Of a stretch of DNA of 62,451 nt, positions 12,166 through 62,451 are shown piece by piece. The stretch covers positions 1 through 62,451 of the forward strand of contig CAMFDG010000009.1 of NCBI GenBank assembly GCA_945949045.1, read 5' to 3'. This stretch comes from an uncultured Lachnospiraceae bacterium. Its GTDB lineage: Bacteria; Bacillota; Clostridia; Lachnospirales; Lachnospiraceae. Position 1 is the first letter of the stretch. The number at the start of each line of letters is the position of its first letter. Made by a program: the position numbers and the translations under genes. The notes beneath the pieces are model-generated. The model had not been told where the DNA came from, made no database searches, and saw nothing but the letters and a program-made list of their open reading frames with translations.

Positions 12166-12644
12166 GAAGAATAAGAAAACACTGAGAAAAAGAGAGTACA
12201 TCTGACAGGAACTTTACAGAGAGATTTCCGGCGGTACGCCGCATGCTGAGAGGAAATGGGGGAGCGCAGATGGAAGATGGCTTTGGAGTGGCAGGATTGA
12301 GCCCGGGAGGTTAGATTCTGACAGGACCGCCTGTTATAGCGGAGAATAAGGCTGTTGCAAAAGTGTCATAATATGATATGAGGGTCAAAAGGTATTTTGC
12401 CCCTCATTTGATACACGAATTGCTCCGTTGCTACGCAACTTCCGCAATTCTACACACATTCGGAATCCGTTGATTTTCCAAGGAAAATCACAGGGTCATC
12501 AATCAAAGATTGGTGACAGTCCTCATGTGTGTGCGGGTCAACAAGTCAGAACTCTTGTATCATAATATGTGACAGGCAGCGGCGAAGAGAAGTGGTAACA
12601 CGGGATGATGCTCTCGTCTTCTATGGAAGGCGGGGGCTTTTTGT
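12166..12644 (+). promoter_or_regulatory. T-box leader of metG, interrupted by a repeat element
   Basis: T-box riboswitch for a methionyl-tRNA synthetase gene. The leader begins GAAGAATAAGAAAACACTGA (stem I side). The 3' part has the T-box core GAAGTGGTAACACGGG (12590-12605) and a terminator (CTCGTCTTC...GAAGGCGGGGGCTTTTTG, 12613-12644). An ATG specifier is plausible in GAGGAAATGGGGG (about 12251-12263). A 212 bp family D element (12364-12575) lies between the stem I/II part and the antiterminator, making the leader unusually long. Whether sensing still works is uncertain, since a self-folding insert may be tolerated. Confidence 0.8.
12364..12575 (+). repeat. Dispersed structured element, family D copy 1
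   Basis: A 212 bp element with imperfect terminal inverted repeats (TGTCATAATATGATA at 12364-12378, TATCATAATATGTGACA at 12559-12575). It is built of successive hairpins: ATGAGGG/CCCTCAT closing CAAAA/TTTTG, GAATTGC/GCAATTC closing GTTGC/GCAAC, GATTTTCC/GGAAAATC, and ATCAATC/GATTGGT, with an outer CACACAT/ATGTGTG helix. It has no coding capacity. Other copies lie at 16636 (reverse), 46505 (reverse, partial) and 62340 (cut by the window end). Confidence 0.8.
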
Positions 12645-16635: not shown

Positions 16636-16799
16636 ATATGATATGATATGATACAAGGGTCAAAAGGTCAGAACTCGTTCCTGCTTGCAGGATAAGAGCT
16701 CTGACTTGTTGACCCGCACACACATGAGGACTGTCATCAATCTTTGATTGATGCCCCTGTGATTTTCCTTGGAAAATCAACGGATTCCGAATGTGTGTA
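16636..16799 (-). repeat. Family D element copy 2 (reverse, truncated)
   Basis: It reads as the reverse complement of the right two thirds of copy 1. Shared blocks include TTGTTGACCCGCACACACAT, GAGGACTGTCATCAATC and GATTTTCCTTGGAAAATCAA, ending at AATGTGTGTAG where the GAATTGC hairpin should follow. An extra hairpin GTCAGAACTC...GAGCTCTGAC around TTCCTGCTTGCAGGATAA lies at its left end, and the same hairpin occurs alone at 38569. The rest of the 16472-16882 gap holds only the promoter and hairpin listed separately. Confidence 0.75.
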
Positions 16800-16882
16800 G
16801 TCTTGCGGGGCGCGGACTTGGATATAGATCTGCATAGTTACCCTTAAAGAAAGTCAGACTATGGAATGAAGGAGGCACGCAG

Positions 16883-24194: not shown

Positions 24195-24359
24195 TTGCAT
24201 CGATACCTGCGTACGCTTTTTCGTTTCTCTGCAATGTTATGAATTGGTTGATTTCATAAAGTCCGGTTAAATAAAAACAGCTATACCAGCTCTTTCATCA
24301 TGTGTTTTACTTGGTTATGGGGTTCTACAATTATAAATGAATTCTATTGAGAGAGAAAA

Positions 24360-24690
24360 TAGGGGTGAAAATCATAAAAGTCAAAAATCGTCCGTACGAA
24401 ATAGAGGAATGGTACGGGTGAAAAACGCAAAAACTGAAAATCGCCCGTACGAAATAGAGGAATGGTACGGGTGAAAAACGCAAAAGTCGAAAACACCCGT
24501 GCGCAGGGGAGAGATGGTACGGGTGAAAAACGCAAAAGTCAAAGAACACCCGTGCGCAGGGGAGAGATGGTACGGGTGAAAAACACAAAAGGCGAAAATC
24601 ACTCGTATGAAGGAGAGAAATAGTACGGGTGAAAAACGCCAAGGTCAAAAATCGCCCGTACAAAAGGCAAAATGATACGGACGAAAACAA
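24360..24690. repeat. Hairpin array A3 (family A, seven units)
   Basis: Seven units start near 24360, 24413, 24466, 24518, 24571, 24624 and 24676 (spacing 52-53 bp). Cores read TACGGGTGAAAAACGCAAAA then a variable middle and (T)C(A/G)CCCGT(A/G). Spacers come in groups: CGAAATAGAGGAATGG (units 1-2), GCGCAGGGGAGAGATGG (units 3-4), then two diverged ones. The last unit is degenerate and runs into the ribosome site of the truncated GNAT gene at 24712. An open frame on the minus strand across the array is an artefact, since its units do not keep a constant multiple of three. Between 24195 and 24360 I see nothing else. Confidence 0.93.
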
Positions 24691-24711
24691 CAATCATAGG
24701 AGAATGTGAGA

Positions 24712-39614: not shown

Positions 39615-39882
39615 ATATTAGTCCTCCTTAACTTCTCGAATATAGTGTCTGTCAGCTTTTACACATAAATGGTCTGTCTCATAAATCACACTCGGCTGTG
39701 ATATACAATTTTCAGGGCTCGATAGTTTCTTTAAGTATATATTATCATAAAGAGTGTAAACAATGAAATAAACCTATGGTACAAAATTCATAGGTAAAAA
39801 TTCATAGGTGGTACAATTTCATCCTGAGGAGCAACCGATTTCAATACCGGTAATCCATCTCTTCCCTGTTTTCTACATTTTA

Positions 39883-40170
39883 GATTATTTTCTGCGAGAC
39901 AGATTAGCAGAAGTAATCTTTTTCAGAATCCTTCGTCACCGTTTAGATTACTTTCCTCAACTTGCAAAGTGCAAAAATAATCTTTTTTGTACATTCTCCT
40001 CAGAGTTTGGATTACTTTCTCCGATATCAAGTTGCAGAAGTAATCTTTTTCGTACATTTCCTTCACAAATTAGATTACTTTCTCTGACATCAAGTCGCAG
40101 AAGTAATCTTTTTCATATATTCCCTTTACAATTTGGATTACTTTCTCCAGCTTCGATGCGCAAAAGTACG
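39883..40170. repeat. Hairpin array C (family C, 63 bp period)
   Basis: Five units start with GATTA at 39883, 39946, 40010, 40073 and 40136 (spacing 63, 64, 63, 63 bp). Units 3 and 4 are the cleanest: GATTACTTTCTC(C/T)GA then CAAGT(T/C)GCAGAAGTAATC, arms GATTACTT/AAGTAATC, followed by TTTTTC and a spacer of about 25 bp (CGTACATTTCCTTCACAAAT type). The first and last are decayed. The flanking 39615-39882 region holds a short direct repeat TTCATAGGT (39788, 39802) and otherwise nothing I recognise. Confidence 0.9.
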
Positions 40171-44473: not shown

Positions 44474-45760
44474 ATGAAGGGATTGAAGCAGGAACTGGAA
44501 GCATCCATCTGTCATGTATTGGACAGGGTGAAGACCGTGTTCCGGGAGGAACCGGAGGTTTACGAGCTATTTGAGAACTGTTATACCAATACGCTGCGCA
44601 CAGCAGTGCGTCCTATGGAGGATGAAACGGTTTATGTTGTCACCGGGGACATTCCCGCCATGTGGCTTAGGGATTCTGCGGCATCGCTTCGTCCCTATCT
44701 GGTTCCGGCGCGGGAAGACAGGCAGATTGCGGATCTGCTGGCAGGTGTGGTCCGCCGGCAGTTTCAGTACATATGCATAGATCCCTATGCAAATGCTTTT
44801 AACGAGGCGCCGAACGGGAACTGTTGGGCAAGGGGTGACACAGAGATGAATGATTGGCTCTGGGAGAGAAAATACGAGGTGGATTCTCTGTGCTACCCAT
44901 TGCATTTTGCTTACCTTATCTGGAAAAATACAGGGAGAACGGATCCATTCGACCAGACTTTTGTGGAGGGCGCATGGAAGATTCTTAAGGTATTTCGCAC
45001 AGAACAGTATCATGAGGAAAAATCGGATTACCGGTTTTCCAGAAAAGATACTTATTTTACCGATACACTCTCCAGAAACGGCAAAGGAGCTCTGGTGAAA
45101 TCCGCCACAGGCATGATCTGGTCCGGCTTCAGGCCCAGCGATGATGCCTGTACCTACGGATATCTGGTTCCGTCGAATATGTTTGCAGTGGTGGCTTTGG
45201 AAAACCTTGCGGATATTGCCGGACAGATACTGGGAGACAGAGAACTGAAGCAGGAAGCATTACAATTAAGAAATGAAATCTATGAAGGAATAGAAACCTA
45301 TGCCATTACCCGAAAAGAGGGATATGGTCTGGTATATGCCTATGAGGTGGACGGATTCGGGCAGTATTGTCTGATGGACGATGCCAATGTACCCAGCCTT
45401 CTTTCCATGGATTATCTGGGATACCGGGGGAAGGACAGGCAGGTGGCCCTCAATACCAGAAAAATGATCCTGAGTGAGGCAAATCCGTATTTTTATAAGG
45501 GGAAAAAGGCAGAAGGGATTGGCAGTCCCCACACCAGAGTCGGCTATATCTGGCCGATCGCTCTCTGTATGCAGGCACTGACGGCAGAGACGATGGAGGA
45601 AAAAAGGAAAATCATTGAGCTTCTGGCAGCAACAGATGGCGGAAAAGGGCTGATGCACGAAAGCTTCTGTGCCGATGATGATACGCAGTACACAAGAGAC
45701 TGGTTTGCCTGGGCGAATGCCATGTTCTGTGAGTTGATCATGGATTACTGTGGAATATAG
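44474..45760 (+). CDS. GH125 exo-alpha-1,6-mannosidase
   Basis: A 428-residue glycoside hydrolase of family GH125, metal-independent alpha-mannosidases that remove terminal mannose from N-glycan-like chains with inversion. Family segments are [60 protein letters not shown] (acid Asp region), [18 protein letters not shown], and [20 protein letters not shown] (base Glu region). There is no signal peptide, so it acts inside the cell on imported oligosaccharides. GTGAGGAGG precedes the start. It is adjacent to the NUDIX gene on the same strand. Confidence 0.93.
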
Positions 45761-45867
45761 CCCGAGGCTGCAAATTGGCAAATTGGCAGAATTACATGAA
45801 TTGATAATTTACTGATTACATGTTATGATATGTAATACAAGTGATGACAGGAAAAGGAGAAAAGACG

Positions 45868-46326
45868 ATGGGGTTTTTGGACAAACTGATTAAGGGAGCA
45901 CAGATGCTGGGGGAAATGGCTTCCGAGATGAATACAGCGGAGAGACCGGTATCAGGACCGGTGCATACGGCACCTTATGTCCCGGAAAAGAGCTTTGAGG
46001 AGAAACTGCAGACGGTTTTACAGAATGCAGGCAGCTATGAACTTCGAAATAACATTTCCCCGGACGAATTAGAGCGGGAGTTCGGGCAGGAAATCTATAC
46101 CCGGAAGGGATGTAAAAGACCGGAGAATATTACCTATGGCATTTATCAGGCTGGGAACAGGGTTCTTCTGATTCGGCTTTGGACAAATTACGGAGATTAT
46201 AATCACAGGGCAAATCGCCAGATTAGGGAATTCTGTGAGTCTCACGGTGCAAAAATACTGGATTTCTTCGGCTATCTTCCAAATGAAGAAAGCTACATGG
46301 ATCAACGAATCCGGGCAAATCTGTAA
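45868..46326 (+). CDS. Conserved hypothetical protein
   Basis: A 152-residue soluble protein I cannot name. The N-terminal GFLDKLIKGAQMLGEMASEM is an amphipathic helix. A proline-rich bridge (RPVSGPVHTAPYVPEKSFEE) leads to an alpha/beta domain with NNISPDELEREFGQEIYTRK, YGIYQAGNRVLLIRLWTNYG and REFCESHGAKILDFFGYLPN. It may be a short restriction-endonuclease-like or DUF-type fold, but no motif proves this. The start at 45868 is fixed by AAAGGAGA. It is the gene immediately upstream of the reverse transcriptase locus, 279 bp away. Confidence 0.7.
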   Translation: MGFLDKLIKGAQMLGEMASEMNTAERPVSGPVHTAPYVPEKSFEEKLQTVLQNAGSYELRNNISPDELEREFGQEIYTRKGCKRPENITYGIYQAGNRVLLIRLWTNYGDYNHRANRQIREFCESHGAKILDFFGYLPNEESYMDQRIRANL

Positions 46327-46504
46327 CCATATTGGGCAAAAAGGAAGCGAAACGCAGCAGTTGCTGCATCTGTGAGGGATGAAGCATATTTTTTCCGTGA
46401 GACGGAAGGCCAAACGGTCTGCTTTGCAGATAGCAGAAATATGTTCAGTCCGGTAGAATCAAGCACGCTTTGATTCCTTCAAAGTTCTTTTGCTTTCCTT
46501 TTTC

Positions 46505-46590
46505 TATAATAGAATTGCGGAAGCTGCGTTGAGCAGAGCAATTCCTATACCAGGTGAGTGGCAAAAGAAATTTTGTCACTCACATCTTAT
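46505..46590 (+). promoter_or_regulatory. Reverse transcriptase leader: -10 box plus two family D hairpins
   Basis: TATAAT at 46505-46510 is a perfect -10 hexamer with no good -35. A transcript starting near 46516 would consist almost only of two hairpins. Hairpin 1 (46512-46544) has arms GAATTGC/GCAATTC with an inner CTGC/GCAG. Hairpin 2 (46554-46583) has a 13-pair stem GTGAGTGGCAAAA/TTTTGTCACTCAC and a GAAA loop. Together they are the reverse complement of the left end of the dispersed family D element. The reverse transcriptase ribosome site and ATG follow 20 bases later. Further upstream (46327-46500) are weaker hairpins (TTCCGTGAGACGGAA, GAATCAAGCACGCTTTGATTC). Confidence 0.65.
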
Positions 46591-46605
46591 TATAAGGATT
46601 GTAGT

Positions 46606-47820
46606 ATGGAAATACTTTCATTACTTTATTCCGAGGCTGCCTGGCAGGATTTTTTACAGCACAAAACGCAAAAACAGCATATATCGAAAACGGAGCAGAA
46701 GGGCTTGGAAGCGTATATTTACGGACGCCGTTATCTGGCTGTTTTGGATGCCATGAAGGAGCCGGATTACAGCTGCCCGGTGCCGGTGAAAAGGGAGATC
46801 AATAAGGGAGGGGTATCCAGGAAACGAGTGGTATATTCTTACCCGGAGGACTTTACTGTCGTTCTGAAAAATATAGCGTTTTCATTATACAAATATGACG
46901 GCCTTTTTGCGGAAAACTGCTACGCCTTTCGCAGAAATCATGGTGTTCGGGATGCCATAAAGCGGATTCTTCGTACAAAGGATATTTCTTCAAAATACTG
47001 CCTGAAGGTGGATATCAGCAATTATTTTAATTCCATTGATGTGCCGCTTCTTCTCAGTAAGCTGGCTTTTTTAAAGGAAGAGGATGCTTCCTTGTATGCG
47101 CTGTTTGAAGGGATGCTTACGACAGATCAGGCATTGGAAAACGGTCATACGGTTACGGAAAAGAGAGGTGCAATGGCGGGAACGCCGGTATCTCCCTTTT
47201 TTGCCAATGTGTATCTGATGGATGTGGACCGGTATTTTGAGGAGAGAGGGGTTCTCTATTTCCGCTATTCGGATGATATTTTGATTTTTGCAGATTCCGC
47301 GGAGGAGCTTCAGGAATACCGGCAGATTTTGTACCGCAAGATCGAGGAACATCAATTAAGATTGAATTCTGCGAAGGTTCATATCAGTGCGCCCGGGGAA
47401 TCCTTTGAATTTCTTGGTTTATGTTATGATCATGGGGAAATCGATCTGTCAGCCAATACCATACGCAAAATGAAGGATAAAATCAGAAGGAAGGCAAAGG
47501 CTTTACGTCGATGGCAGAGTCGTAAGGGACTTTCCGGGGAAAAGGCGGCCAAAGGTTTTATCAAGGCCATGAATCACAAATTCTTTGACAGTGGTGACGG
47601 GACGGAGTTTTCCTGGAGTCGGTGGTTTTTCCCGAATTTAACCACGGACAGAGGACTAAAGGAAATTGACCGGTACATGCAGCAGTATATCCGTTACTGT
47701 GTGACAGGGCGGCATTATAAGGGAAATTACCGGATGCCCTATGAACAGTTGAAGGAATGGGGATATCGGAATCTGGTGCATGAGTTTTATGAAAAGGAAA
47801 GAAAAGTTGGATACATTTGA
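46606..47820 (+). CDS. Stand-alone reverse transcriptase, unclassified
   Basis: A 404-residue RNA-directed DNA polymerase. RT motifs in order: RKRVVYSYPEDF (RT1), NCYAFRRNHGVRDAIKRIL (RT2), YCLKVDISNYFNSIDVPLL with the first catalytic Asp (RT3), RGAMAGTPVSPFFANVYLMD (RT4), VLYFRYSDDILIFADSAEEL with catalytic YSDD (RT5), HQLRLNSAKVHISAPG (RT6) and FEFLGLCYDHGEIDL (RT7). A basic thumb region (TIRKMKDKIRRKAKALRRW) and a C-terminal helical part (YMQQYIRYCVTGRHYKGNYR) follow. There is no HNH or maturase DNA-binding domain, and no intron, retron msr/msd or template/variable repeat is seen nearby. The start at 46606 follows AAGGATTGTAGT. It overlaps the next gene, so both form one unit. Confidence 0.92.
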   Translation: MEILSLLYSEAAWQDFLQHKTQKQHISKTEQKGLEAYIYGRRYLAVLDAMKEPDYSCPVPVKREINKGGVSRKRVVYSYPEDFTVVLKNIAFSLYKYDGLFAENCYAFRRNHGVRDAIKRILRTKDISSKYCLKVDISNYFNSIDVPLLLSKLAFLKEEDASLYALFEGMLTTDQALENGHTVTEKRGAMAGTPVSPFFANVYLMDVDRYFEERGVLYFRYSDDILIFADSAEELQEYRQILYRKIEEHQLRLNSAKVHISAPGESFEFLGLCYDHGEIDLSANTIRKMKDKIRRKAKALRRWQSRKGLSGEKAAKGFIKAMNHKFFDSGDGTEFSWSRWFFPNLTTDRGLKEIDRYMQQYIRYCVTGRHYKGNYRMPYEQLKEWGYRNLVHEFYEKERKVGYI

Positions 47821-48757
47821 AATGCTCAAAGAGCTGCTGGTACAGAACGAATTTGAGCTGCTCCTGCCGGATATAAAGGAACAGAACAGGCAGCAGGACA
47901 TCCGCCTGGTTTACCAGATGAACGACACGGTAGAAAGCTTTCTGGTATTTCGGGAAGCAGTCTGGACGGGAACTTACAAAGAGAATTATGAGGGGAAGCT
48001 TATTGCTTCCTTCGATCAGGACGGCGGCCGATATGTTCTGGGCGTAAGACAGGGAGACAGCGTGATTACGCTGTTTTACCGGAAGTTGGATCTGGAGGTA
48101 CAGCTTTATAATTATGGAGATGCAGCACATTTCTGGGTCCCGAAATACGAAAATCTGAGGCAGCTGGAGTTTCGAATTGCGGTACTTTGGGACAAATTTA
48201 CATATCTTGGAGAAGATTATTGTACGAGAGGGGAGAGGCGGCTGGTCCATCTGGCGGATGTGCCGGCACTTAATTTCTGCTCCTATTGTGCGGCTCCGGA
48301 GCAGTATCAGGTACCTCATGAGATGCCGGTGGAATCTTTTCGTCAGGGTCTTGATGTGATGGAGGAGCTTGCGAAAGAAGCGAAGGATCATTCTCTGGTG
48401 CGACTGGTGCGGTTTTACAGGAAGCATCCCTACCCGATCGTAACAAAGTACGTGGCACGTGCTCTTCATCAAAGCAGGCATTTTGGTTTTATTCAGATTC
48501 TTACGGAGACTATCAAGAAGGAGACGGAGGTCTATCCGCACCGCTCCTTTGGGAAAGAGACAGATGCACAGATTGCAGAATGGATCAAGGCAGCGGAAAA
48601 AAAGCGAAAGGAGCTGGAGCAGGACGGCGCATATGCCGAGGTGCTCAGAGAGGATCCGTTTACGACAGCACAGGATCAGATGGAAATGAAAGTGTATGTC
48701 CTTGCCACAAGGCGTGGCAGGATCAACCAGCGTGTAGAAGTGTTCGAATATGAATGA
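47780..48757 (+). CDS. DUF3878-like protein coupled to the reverse transcriptase
   Basis: A protein of up to 325 residues, beginning inside the 3' end of the reverse transcriptase gene; possible starts are ATG 47780, 47789 or 47822, the last just after the RT stop in TGAAATG. It is soluble. Marked segments are DGGRYVLGVRQGDSVITLFY, LYNYGDAAHFWVPKYENLRQ, LEFRIAVLWDKFTYLGEDYC and PALNFCSYCAAPEQYQVPHE. The C-terminal half is helical (VRLVRFYRKHPYPIVTKYVA) with a lysine/glutamate-rich stretch. I recall this layout as DUF3878, but this needs a profile search. No catalytic motif is recognised. Tight coupling suggests it works with the RT. Confidence 0.6.
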   Translation: MSFMKRKEKLDTFEMLKELLVQNEFELLLPDIKEQNRQQDIRLVYQMNDTVESFLVFREAVWTGTYKENYEGKLIASFDQDGGRYVLGVRQGDSVITLFYRKLDLEVQLYNYGDAAHFWVPKYENLRQLEFRIAVLWDKFTYLGEDYCTRGERRLVHLADVPALNFCSYCAAPEQYQVPHEMPVESFRQGLDVMEELAKEAKDHSLVRLVRFYRKHPYPIVTKYVARALHQSRHFGFIQILTETIKKETEVYPHRSFGKETDAQIAEWIKAAEKKRKELEQDGAYAEVLREDPFTTAQDQMEMKVYVLATRRGRINQRVEVFEYE

Positions 48758-48790: not shown

Positions 48791-48931
48791 TTAATTCCGT
48801 ATAATTGCATTGGGATAAATCCGCTCCAGAATAAAGCCGGTAAGCAGTACCACAAAAATGGACAAAAGCGTGCCGCCCAGGAAGGAATAAATCAGGAAAA
48901 ACCACAGGAACTGGTATACTGTGTAACTCAT
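48791..48931 (-). CDS. Small membrane protein coupled to DHH gene
   Basis: A 46-residue protein read downstream of the DHH phosphoesterase on the minus strand. Its ATG (48931) overlaps the DHH stop as ATGA, a translational-coupling arrangement. The sequence is nearly all one or two membrane helices: SYTVYQFLWFFLIYSFLGGT, LLSIFVVLLTGFILERIYP, ending NAIIRN. The start Y-Q-F-L-W-F-F-L-I-Y-S-F-L-G is like the beginning of the CmpB-type putative ABC permease family (PF06541), so it may be a shortened relative. Too short for standard gene callers. Confidence 0.55.
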   Translation of the reverse strand: MSYTVYQFLWFFLIYSFLGGTLLSIFVVLLTGFILERIYPNAIIRN

Positions 48932-49848
48932 GCGTTCGCCATTTCAGACAATTCTTTTAACAGCTTTGGCAGCTCGGTGTCCATATTCTCGTCGCTGAAC
49001 TGGCACGTACCTACCTTCTTATGGCCGCCGCCATTGTATTTGAGCATAAGGCTGCCCACATCCAGAGTTGCGGTGCGGTTTAACACACTGTAACCAACGG
49101 CTGCCGAACACCCTTTGCCGCCACGTCCGCTGACGATCCATGCGGAGATGTTTTGTTCCGGGTACATGCTGTAGATCATAAAGCGGTTTCCGGAGTAAAT
49201 GGGATCCACACCCCGCAGATCAGAGATCAGCAGATTTCCGTCCACGACGGTGTGTGCTTTGACCATCTCTACAAATTTCTCTGTCTGTTCAAAATATGTA
49301 TCAACACGCTCCTGTACATCGGGGAGTGCAAGAATTTCTTCGGTGGACATTGTGCGACAGGCATCAATCAGACGCTCCATCAGCTGATAATTTGAGATGG
49401 TAAAATTGCGCCAGCGGCCCAGCCCGGTACGTGGATCCATGAGAAAGCCGATTAAAATCCATCCCGTCGGGTGCTGCACCTCCTCAATGGTAAGATTGCC
49501 GGAATCTACCTTATCGACGGCCTCCATCATTTCATCAAACTGTGGAAAACGCTCCTTTCCCCCGTAATAGTCATAAATTATCCGCGCGCAGGAAGGCGTC
49601 ATGCGGCTTTCGCCCTTGTATTTCCCCTCAAGCTGAAGACGTTCATGTTCGCTGGAGTGGTGGTCGAACCATAACCCACAGCCCTCAACAAAAGGAACAT
49701 TCGCCAGACAGTCATTCTCATTAACCTCCACAAGACCATCCTGCAAATCCTTCGGATGTGCAAATTTCCAACTATCAATAATGCCGGCCTCTTTTAAAAG
49801 AGCGCCACAGGCAAGCCCATCAAAATCAGATCTTGTAACAAGTCTCAT
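48928..49848 (-). CDS. DHH family phosphoesterase
   Basis: A 306-residue metal-dependent phosphoesterase of the DHH superfamily (NrnA, PpaC and exopolyphosphatase relatives). Motif I is LVTRSDFDGLACGALLKEAG. The name-giving D-H-H is in GLWFDHHSSEHERLQLEGK. An Asp motif lies in MEAVDKVDSGNLT. The DHHA1-like C-terminal substrate domain ends in KYNGGGHKKVGTCQF. It probably hydrolyses short oligonucleotides, nucleotides or polyphosphate. RBS AAAGGAGAAAGGT precedes ATG 49848. A small membrane gene overlaps its stop. It converges on the RT-DUF operon with 171 bp between stops. Confidence 0.9.
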   Translation of the reverse strand: MRLVTRSDFDGLACGALLKEAGIIDSWKFAHPKDLQDGLVEVNENDCLANVPFVEGCGLWFDHHSSEHERLQLEGKYKGESRMTPSCARIIYDYYGGKERFPQFDEMMEAVDKVDSGNLTIEEVQHPTGWILIGFLMDPRTGLGRWRNFTISNYQLMERLIDACRTMSTEEILALPDVQERVDTYFEQTEKFVEMVKAHTVVDGNLLISDLRGVDPIYSGNRFMIYSMYPEQNISAWIVSGRGGKGCSAAVGYSVLNRTATLDVGSLMLKYNGGGHKKVGTCQFSDENMDTELPKLLKELSEMANA

Positions 49849-52110: not shown

Positions 52111-52322
52111 AAGCCGCACCTTTGGTGCTTTTCCGTTGCTTTGCAGTCTGTAATTAAGGAGGAACTCGCATAGCGGGAGAATTTCGTTTGACACATCTTT
52201 GCTTATAACTGTATGACAAGCAAATTTATGTAAGCGGGACTCTCTTGTTGTACTGGTTATGGCTGAATTGATGCAGAAAAATTGCTTCTGCCGACCACGG
52301 TAAGGGTTTTTCGATGTATTGG

Positions 52323-52680
52323 TACGGGCGAAAATGGGAAAGGGCGAAAATCACCTGTATAGTTGGAGTGATATGTACGGGCGAAAATGGCAAAGACTGA
52401 AAATCACCCGTACAGTTGGAATGGTATGTACGGGCGGAAATAGGAAAGACTGAAAATCACCCGTACAGTTGGAATGATATGTACGGGCGAAAATGGGAAA
52501 GACTGAAAATCACCCGTACAGTTGGAATGGTATGTACGGGCGGAAATAGGAAAGACTGAAAATCACCCGTACAGTTGGAATGATATGTACGGGCGGAAAT
52601 GGGAAAGGGCGAAAATCACCCGTACAGTTGGAGAGATATGTACGGGCGGAAATAGAAAAAAGAAAAACCCCGCCCGTATA
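52323..52680. repeat. Hairpin array A4 (family A, seven units, exact 53 bp period)
   Basis: Seven units start at 52323, 52376, 52429, 52482, 52535, 52588 and 52641, every interval exactly 53 bp. Cores: TACGGGCG(A/G)AAATGG then a short middle and GAAAATCACCCGTA, 37 bp. The spacer is CAGTTGGAATG(G/A)TATG in nearly all units. Alternate units are more alike (GAAAATGG and GGAAATAG types), suggesting duplication of two-unit blocks. In the last unit both arms change together (TACGGGCGG with CCGCCCGTA), keeping pairing, and this unit also forms part of the M20 gene terminator. Confidence 0.95.
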
Positions 52681-52705
52681 TGGAAATACTACAGGCAGGG
52701 TTTGT
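52650..52705 (-). terminator. Terminator of the M20 gene overlapping array A4
   Basis: On the minus strand, AACCCTGCCTG (about 52693-52703) pairs with CGGGCGGGGTT (about 52667-52677), followed by TTTCTTTTTT, a rho-independent terminator 12 bp after the M20 stop. Its 3' arm and T-tract are the right half of the last family A unit. Confidence 0.7.
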
Positions 52706-62339: not shown

Positions 62340-62451
62340 TTCATATGATGTGAGTGTCAAAAGTGCTTTTGCCACTCACTGATATACGAATTGCTTCGTT
62401 GCTCCGCAACTCCCGCAATTCTACACACATTCGCAATCCGTTGATTTTCCT
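62340..62451 (+). repeat. Family D element copy 4, cut by window end
   Basis: It reads in the same direction as copy 1: ATTCATATGATGTGAGTGTC, then TTTTGCCACTCACTGATATA, CGAATTGCTTCGTTGCTCCG, CAACTCCCGCAATTCTACAC and ACATTCGCAATCCGTTGATT. The first stem is GTGAGTG/CACTCAC instead of ATGAGGG/CCCTCAT in copy 1, so both arms changed together. The element continues beyond the window. Confidence 0.8.

Follow-up and report, generated by a model that had tools for sequence, protein, structure and literature searches.

Reverse transcriptases (RTs) of the systems DRT2, DRT9, DRT3a and DRT10 (DRT, defence-associated reverse transcriptase) copy a template that lies in a non-coding RNA (ncRNA) encoded in cis (PMC12632851, PMC13174585, PMC12483538, PMC12489045, PMC12596737, PMC8934634). 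In DRT10 a stem-loop is followed immediately, on its 3' side, by the template loop, which contains an A-B-A' repeat (PMC12632851). The group of RTs to which class UG26 appears to be close includes enzymes that have been proposed as kin of telomerase (PMC12632851). Here we analyse a UG26 RT gene, the structured RNA encoded ahead of it and a recurrent gene further upstream, in a contig of 62,451 nucleotides (nt) from an uncultured Lachnospiraceae bacterium (GenBank assembly GCA_945949045.1, contig CAMFDG010000009.1, forward strand), which as a whole is called the window. We suggest that the RT and the RNA, a member of family RT-5, form the core of a system in which a short loop of the RNA serves the RT as template for repetitive complementary DNA (cDNA), with the upstream gene as the usual third part; taken in all its parts, we hold this reading to be about evenly balanced between right and wrong.

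The RT class UG26 and the RNA family RT-5 were both known beforehand, by name: the UG classes reportedly come from a 2022 classification, and the RT-n RNAs are said to have been described in 2017, in a survey that collected candidate structured RNAs. A preliminary description of this DNA had suspected an undescribed RT system, which was mistaken in so far as the class is already listed in PADLOC as UG26 and the RNA in Rfam as RT-5. As far as we have seen, what is new is that UG26 and RT-5 are linked almost obligately, that the RNA has an extended fold with a pseudoknot, and that a gene family recurs upstream of it. In the literature searched, no paper was found that connects UG26 to either RT-5 or the upstream family, and literature searches on DUF3878, on RT-5/RF03026 and on bacterial RTs with structured RNAs likewise found none.

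The UG26 reverse transcriptase and its RT-5 RNA

The RT gene (46606-47820, plus strand) encodes 404 amino acids, and its product belongs over its full length to the known class UG26: the PADLOC model RT_UG26 (PDLC03764) matches residues 1-399 with 547.6 bits, and the AlphaFold 2 (AF2) model of the protein has a predicted local distance difference test score (pLDDT) of 94.3. The next specific UG models score 110.2 (UG27), 107.2 (UG17, the class of DRT10), 104.0 (UG4) and 91.7 bits (Drt9), with Drt3a and Drt2 (73 bits) likewise among the best 25 PADLOC matches, and all 59 relatives scanned match UG26 together with the same runner-up models. While the PADLOC entry for UG26 consists of the RT alone, the window locus has an RNA and an upstream gene as well. 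The preliminary description was right to call the RT complete, with a YSDD motif (encoded at 47266-47277) and without an endonuclease or intron part: Pfam gives an RVT_1 match (E 3.9e-27) and no second domain above its cut-off, and no group II RNA in the window reaches the Rfam gathering threshold. With regard to possible protein priming, residue Y379 is kept in 58 of 59 RTs, and the aromatic position closest to the C-terminus of the RT is Y, W or H. Among the matches listed, the predicted fold is closest to group II RTs; telomerase is absent from the best 50 fold matches listed, which has no bearing on kinship.

That the gene is the remnant of a decayed group II intron is hardly credible. The scan that detects group II RNA at three other RT loci (L017-L019) finds none in the window at Rfam gathering thresholds, and the maturase/RT model TIGR04416 gives 116 bits against a cut-off of 300. 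Between the window and its nearest relative (locus L020), the nonsynonymous rate (dN) of the RT gene is 0.106 and the synonymous rate (dS) 1.35, and this ratio of about 0.08 indicates that the RT evolves under purifying selection between the two; the neighbouring gene at 48928-49848 has a dN of 0.024 and a dS of 1.12 in the same comparison. Retrons also combine an RT, an ncRNA and a partner protein, and the closing stem that joins the ends of the present RNA might play the part of a1/a2, with one arm of the RNA giving rise to one discrete multicopy single-stranded DNA (msDNA). We consider such a retron-like process improbable, as the retron models lie far below the 547.6 bits of UG26 (RT_II-A 64, RT_I-B 59, retron_St85_RT 65 bits). 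A retron-type RT was rejected as a class assignment on these scores of 59-65 bits, St85 falling below its cut-off of 235.

Evidence for the link between RT and RNA comes from 95 UG26 loci, 15 of them from 391 genomes of the same class and the remainder being the best 80 of at least 567 relatives (on at least 589 stretches) among GTDB records. The 391 genomes gave 19 RT matches, four of which were excluded: a diverged RT (L016, 284 bits) and L017-L019, which score 139-145 bits and lie close to group II RNA. With the covariance model R1, the RNA is detected at 93 of the 95 loci (94 matches, with the window counted a second time as L001), 53 of these 93 RNAs having trained the model; the two misses are L039, where the contig begins 94 nt before the RT, and L005. 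All 93 RNAs lie on the strand of the RT and 5' of it, the RNA end being less than 200 nt from the RT start at most loci and overlapping the start, as chosen, by 1 nt at L014. The Rfam RT-5 model, which was made independently, detects the RNA at 13 of the 15 UG26 loci that came from the 391 genomes, and it has no match at the four RT loci that were excluded. Searched genome-wide, R1 has matches in 15 of the 391 genomes, exactly those with an RT above 460 bits and including the genome of L005; no RNA was found in the other 376 with R1, run with filters that can lose weak matches. By these counts, the RT and the RNA occur together almost without exception. The diverged RT of L016 (1501-2622, minus strand; 284 bits to UG26) perhaps represents a sister class; no RT-5 RNA was detected within its 3.7 kb of sequence, and R1 is also without a match across its genome (G235).

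The constant position of the RNA, 5' of the RT and on its strand at all 93 loci, mostly within 200 nt, and with a T-run as the usual sequel to its closing stem, is what would be seen if it were a mere cis-regulator of the RT gene, such as an attenuator or a riboswitch-like leader. In three genomes, however, the RNA is kept at a distance from the RT: 1.2 kb upstream with an opposite-strand open reading frame (ORF) in between (G200, locus L003), about 2.5 kb upstream (G411, contig C16), where a homologue of the upstream gene still adjoins the RNA, and 7.3 kb upstream at L005 (G085, contig C18). The RNA therefore need not belong to the leader of the RT and, it seems, can work at a distance from the RT gene, and a purely regulatory role has, in our estimate, a low probability.

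Systems of UG26 and RT-5 were found in three phyla, among bacteria of the rumen and the gut, and on a quick tree of the RTs from 88 of the 95 loci (labelled by record title for 73 rows) these three phyla need 2 changes, which is the minimum. Within the genus of the window, the RNA was detected in just 2 of the 36 genomes searched.

Fold of the RNA and the proposed template

In the window the RNA spans 46338-46503 (plus strand), and it comprises the Rfam RT-5 structure extended by a closing stem, P1. The RF03026 match covers 46364-46488 with 51.9 bits (gathering threshold 45.7), R1 matches 46340-46503 with 117.5 bits, and P1 pairs 46338-46348 with 46489-46503; the fold has a z-score of -3.4, and RNAs of UG26 systems measure about 145-170 nt. 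A single common architecture is evident in the stretches 5' of the RT across loci. On a MAFFT alignment of 53 RNAs (out of 84 RNA intervals), RNAalifold gave 29 pairs before the pseudoknot was added, and 28 of these show one or more compensatory changes. The pseudoknot joins the P3 loop to the stretch that follows hairpin P2; it adds 6 bp, for a total of 35 pairs, and is formed in the window by AUCUGU (46368-46373, plus strand) and GCAGAU (46426-46431, plus strand). With the pseudoknot included, 95.8% of the cells are paired, as against 80.3% in shuffles and 44-52% with the partners slid, a comparison with the slid versions that is biased towards the structure, as the structure was derived from the same sequences; two-sided changes over the whole structure number 365, as against 107 in shuffles. 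For the pseudoknot helix alone, 318 of 318 cells are paired in the 53 RNAs, 52 of them with two-sided changes, and two of the five summary measures (pairs with two-sided change; further pair types) do not rise above the shuffles. The covariation in this alignment demonstrates a closed multi-stem fold with a covarying pseudoknot and with a conserved single-stranded segment between P4 and the closing stem.

P4 (46455-46476, plus strand in the window) is the last stem-loop ahead of this segment, and a hairpin of varying sequence stands here in the 93 RNAs examined. Directly 3' of it, the UG26 RNAs mostly have a UUCAAA-type motif; in the window the segment is CUUCAAAGUUCU (46477-46488, plus strand), in which T46479, A46481 and A46482 are invariant across the 53 RNAs. 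As a conserved motif lies directly 3' of P4, at a place equivalent to that of the DRT10 template loop (PMC12632851), we infer that this loop is the template of the RT. In the window and in many Lachnospiraceae RNAs, the CAAAG of the loop could also pair with a CUUUG of the P4 3' strand (by eye; 46468-46484 in the window), and this alternative hairpin might hide or expose the proposed template.

The counts of A-B-A' repeats speak weakly for the proposed template, the longer ones lying slightly above chance. Repeats of at least 4 nt occur in 26 of the 73 unique loops, with 19.1 for swapped tails and 16.7 for shuffled tails, and 12 of 500 tail swaps reach the observed count; repeats of at least 3 nt occur in 62 of the 73, with 64.0 for swapped and 52.4 for shuffled tails. 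These figures derive from 93 RNAs, with the P4 parses of L032, L033 and L037 reset by rule; they ignore kinship, let A begin as much as 3 nt within P4, and often have A' in the closing stem. Striking cases are GGAUU-UAAU-GGAUU at L007 and CUGUU-AAAUU-CUGUU at L015; for the window loop, UUC-AAAG-UUC is a possible A-B-A' by eye, and the script preferred another 3-nt match.

A different part of the RNA could serve as template if the system worked in the manner of DRT2, where a longer segment, for example the variable P3 arm, would be copied into concatemers with a coding or regulatory message. The DRT2 ncRNA likewise has several stem-loops and a pseudoknot (PMC12596737), and the P3 arm differs greatly among loci in length and sequence, which might be expected of a template whose sequence is weakly constrained. 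The invariant unpaired positions, in contrast, fall in the loop after P4, and we consider the DRT2-like alternative unlikely, if not strongly so.

Under copying of the loop after P4, the RNA would bind the RT as both scaffold and template, and the RT would copy the segment UUCAAAG... over and over by re-annealing of the cDNA end. The product would be a repetitive single-stranded cDNA, whose unit in the window is predicted to be about CTTTGAA.

The upstream gene, the hairpin leader and DUF3878

A gene for a protein of 152 amino acids (45868-46326, plus strand) precedes the RNA in the window, and its family is the recurrent partner of the system, standing 5' of the RNA at 72 of the 95 UG26 loci. 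Among the 391 genomes the family was found in 7, all of them among the 15 with UG26 RT and RNA. The protein has an amphipathic N-terminus and, from about residue 40, a domain with a putative PD-(D/E)XK-like fold, with the PD-(D/E)XK-like domains of I-Bth0305I, VRR_NUC and the RAP module as candidate fold kin. Searches against Pfam and PDB sequences gave weak and scattered matches, and no family library searched recognises the family. In an alignment of 58 of the 72 members, the columns conserved at 60% or more are without D, E and K, so that the catalytic D and (D/E)xK of PD-(D/E)XK nucleases are not conserved; the protein looks like a nuclease fold that is catalytically dead. Where present, it would bind or sense the cDNA and, perhaps tethered by its N-terminus, act as effector or regulator. 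At L020 the upstream gene (185-445) is truncated and extends about halfway into the RNA, which looks like the result of a deletion, or else of faulty assembly.

The preliminary description placed its unit elsewhere. Its interval, 46505-48757, begins just past the RNA end at 46503, so that the RNA and the gene at 45868-46326 were missed, and the parts that it joined to the RT were a hairpin leader (46504-46605, plus strand), with its hairpins as template or primer, and a DUF3878 gene downstream (47780-48757, plus strand; PF12994, E 4.8e-47). The reported overlap of the DUF3878 gene with the RT gene is real (41 nt). The two genes adjoin, and overlap, in the window and at L020, which is 2 of the 95 loci (7 of the 95 RTs have less than 1 kb of contig downstream), and a lineage-specific accessory role for DUF3878 is possible. 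Against a conserved partnership, five of the six DUF3878-bearing genomes among 60 relatives' genomes are without an RNA match. The leader, for its part, is a dispersed genomic repeat with 14 other strong copies: of the 18 matches in its own genome one is the leader itself, and 14 more have E values under 1e-10 at 79-88% identity. At L020, 19 nt separate the RNA end from the RT start and the leader is absent. Many genome copies and a relative without it argue that the leader is a repeat insertion, and hence not the RNA or template of the system.

A unit of RT, DUF3878 and leader is therefore very improbable. The broader idea, that the RT forms a unit with a structured RNA of its own and with a partner protein, is supported, although these are not the leader and DUF3878 but the RT-5 RNA (93 of 95 loci) and the upstream gene (72 of 95). 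The promoter ascribed to the leader fared similarly: the consensus -10 sequence TATAAT is indeed present at 46505-46510, but a consensus scan of 45700-46700 gives no -35/-10 pair at 46505, and the 2 promoter-like sites of this region, with 1.7 expected in shuffles, both lie elsewhere.

Other repeats are evident in the window. A further copy of the leader repeat lies at 62343-62423 (minus strand), and several copies in the genome stand at contig ends. The copy at 12368-12452 overlaps a match to the Rfam family Clostridiales-1 (12409-12562, minus strand), which has a second match at 16649-16826 (plus strand), and the Clostridiales-1 family may, in this genome, comprise a repeat of the dispersed kind. 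Tandem arrays that are related to one another, their unit measuring about 53 bp (GTACGGG...), occupy 52269-52692, 24348-24704, 2757-2863 and 19-105, and an array of a unit of about 63 bp is found at 39879-40153.

Purpose and comparison with known systems

By kinship, the likeliest purpose of the UG26 system would be antiphage defence. Several results weigh against this, at least in its simple form. At 1e-10, PADLOC families match at most 3 of 128 flanking ORFs (44 loci) and at most 2 of 112 ORFs from random stretches, among the matches listed (the best 25 of 61 families for the loci and of 47 for the controls), so that the flanking genes are no richer in PADLOC matches than random stretches; the controls come from 19 of 20 random stretches and 112 of 113 ORFs, and the flanking ORFs were picked by length, some of them surely being spurious. 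No plasmid or phage record matches at 60% identity or more, and in viral_contigs 27 stretches matched a pattern and tblastn found no relative. Viral carriage of UG26 does exist elsewhere, given that UG26 RTs are reported in cold-seep viruses by the one paper found to name both UG26 and reverse transcriptase (PMC10504277). The alternative would be a machine that sits mostly on chromosomes, away from defence islands, and is in large part confined to its phylum; from the conserved UUCAAAG loop it would make telomerase-like tandem-repeat DNA for some end other than classical phage defence, and a membrane-tethered pseudo-nuclease would be dedicated to reading this DNA. We regard this as rather improbable.

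An RNA family and an RT class that were each known by name prove to belong to a single, nearly obligate unit, to which a third component recurrently adds. The outcome is a defined system of three parts for which both template segment and product are predicted; as it is present in three phyla, among rumen and gut bacteria, its function can be put to a direct test.

Compared with the RT-5 family in Rfam (RF03026), the RNA described here is extended by the closing stem and the pseudoknot, and is tied to UG26 by genome-wide co-occurrence. From DRT2 (UG2; PMC12596737) the system differs in the length of the RNA, about 145-170 nt here and some 280 nt in DRT2 (PMC12489045), and the RT reaches 73 bits with the DRT2 model. 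In comparison with DRT9 (UG28 and ncRNA; PMC12483538 and PMC12489045), the loop is of UUCAAAG type and not poly-U, a partner gene is usual, and the RT is shorter, with 404 amino acids as against 481-499 in the PDB chains of DRT9. DRT10, which consists of a UG17 RT, an ncRNA and a SLATT protein (PMC12632851), differs in that the UG26 partner is not SLATT-like in any search made, the UG26 loop is conserved and not variable, and its A-B-A' repeat is weak. On the side of likeness, both systems have an RT, an ncRNA in cis and a partner gene, in both a loop follows a stem-loop immediately on its 3' side, and the UG17 model is among the three next-best UG models for the RT of the window.
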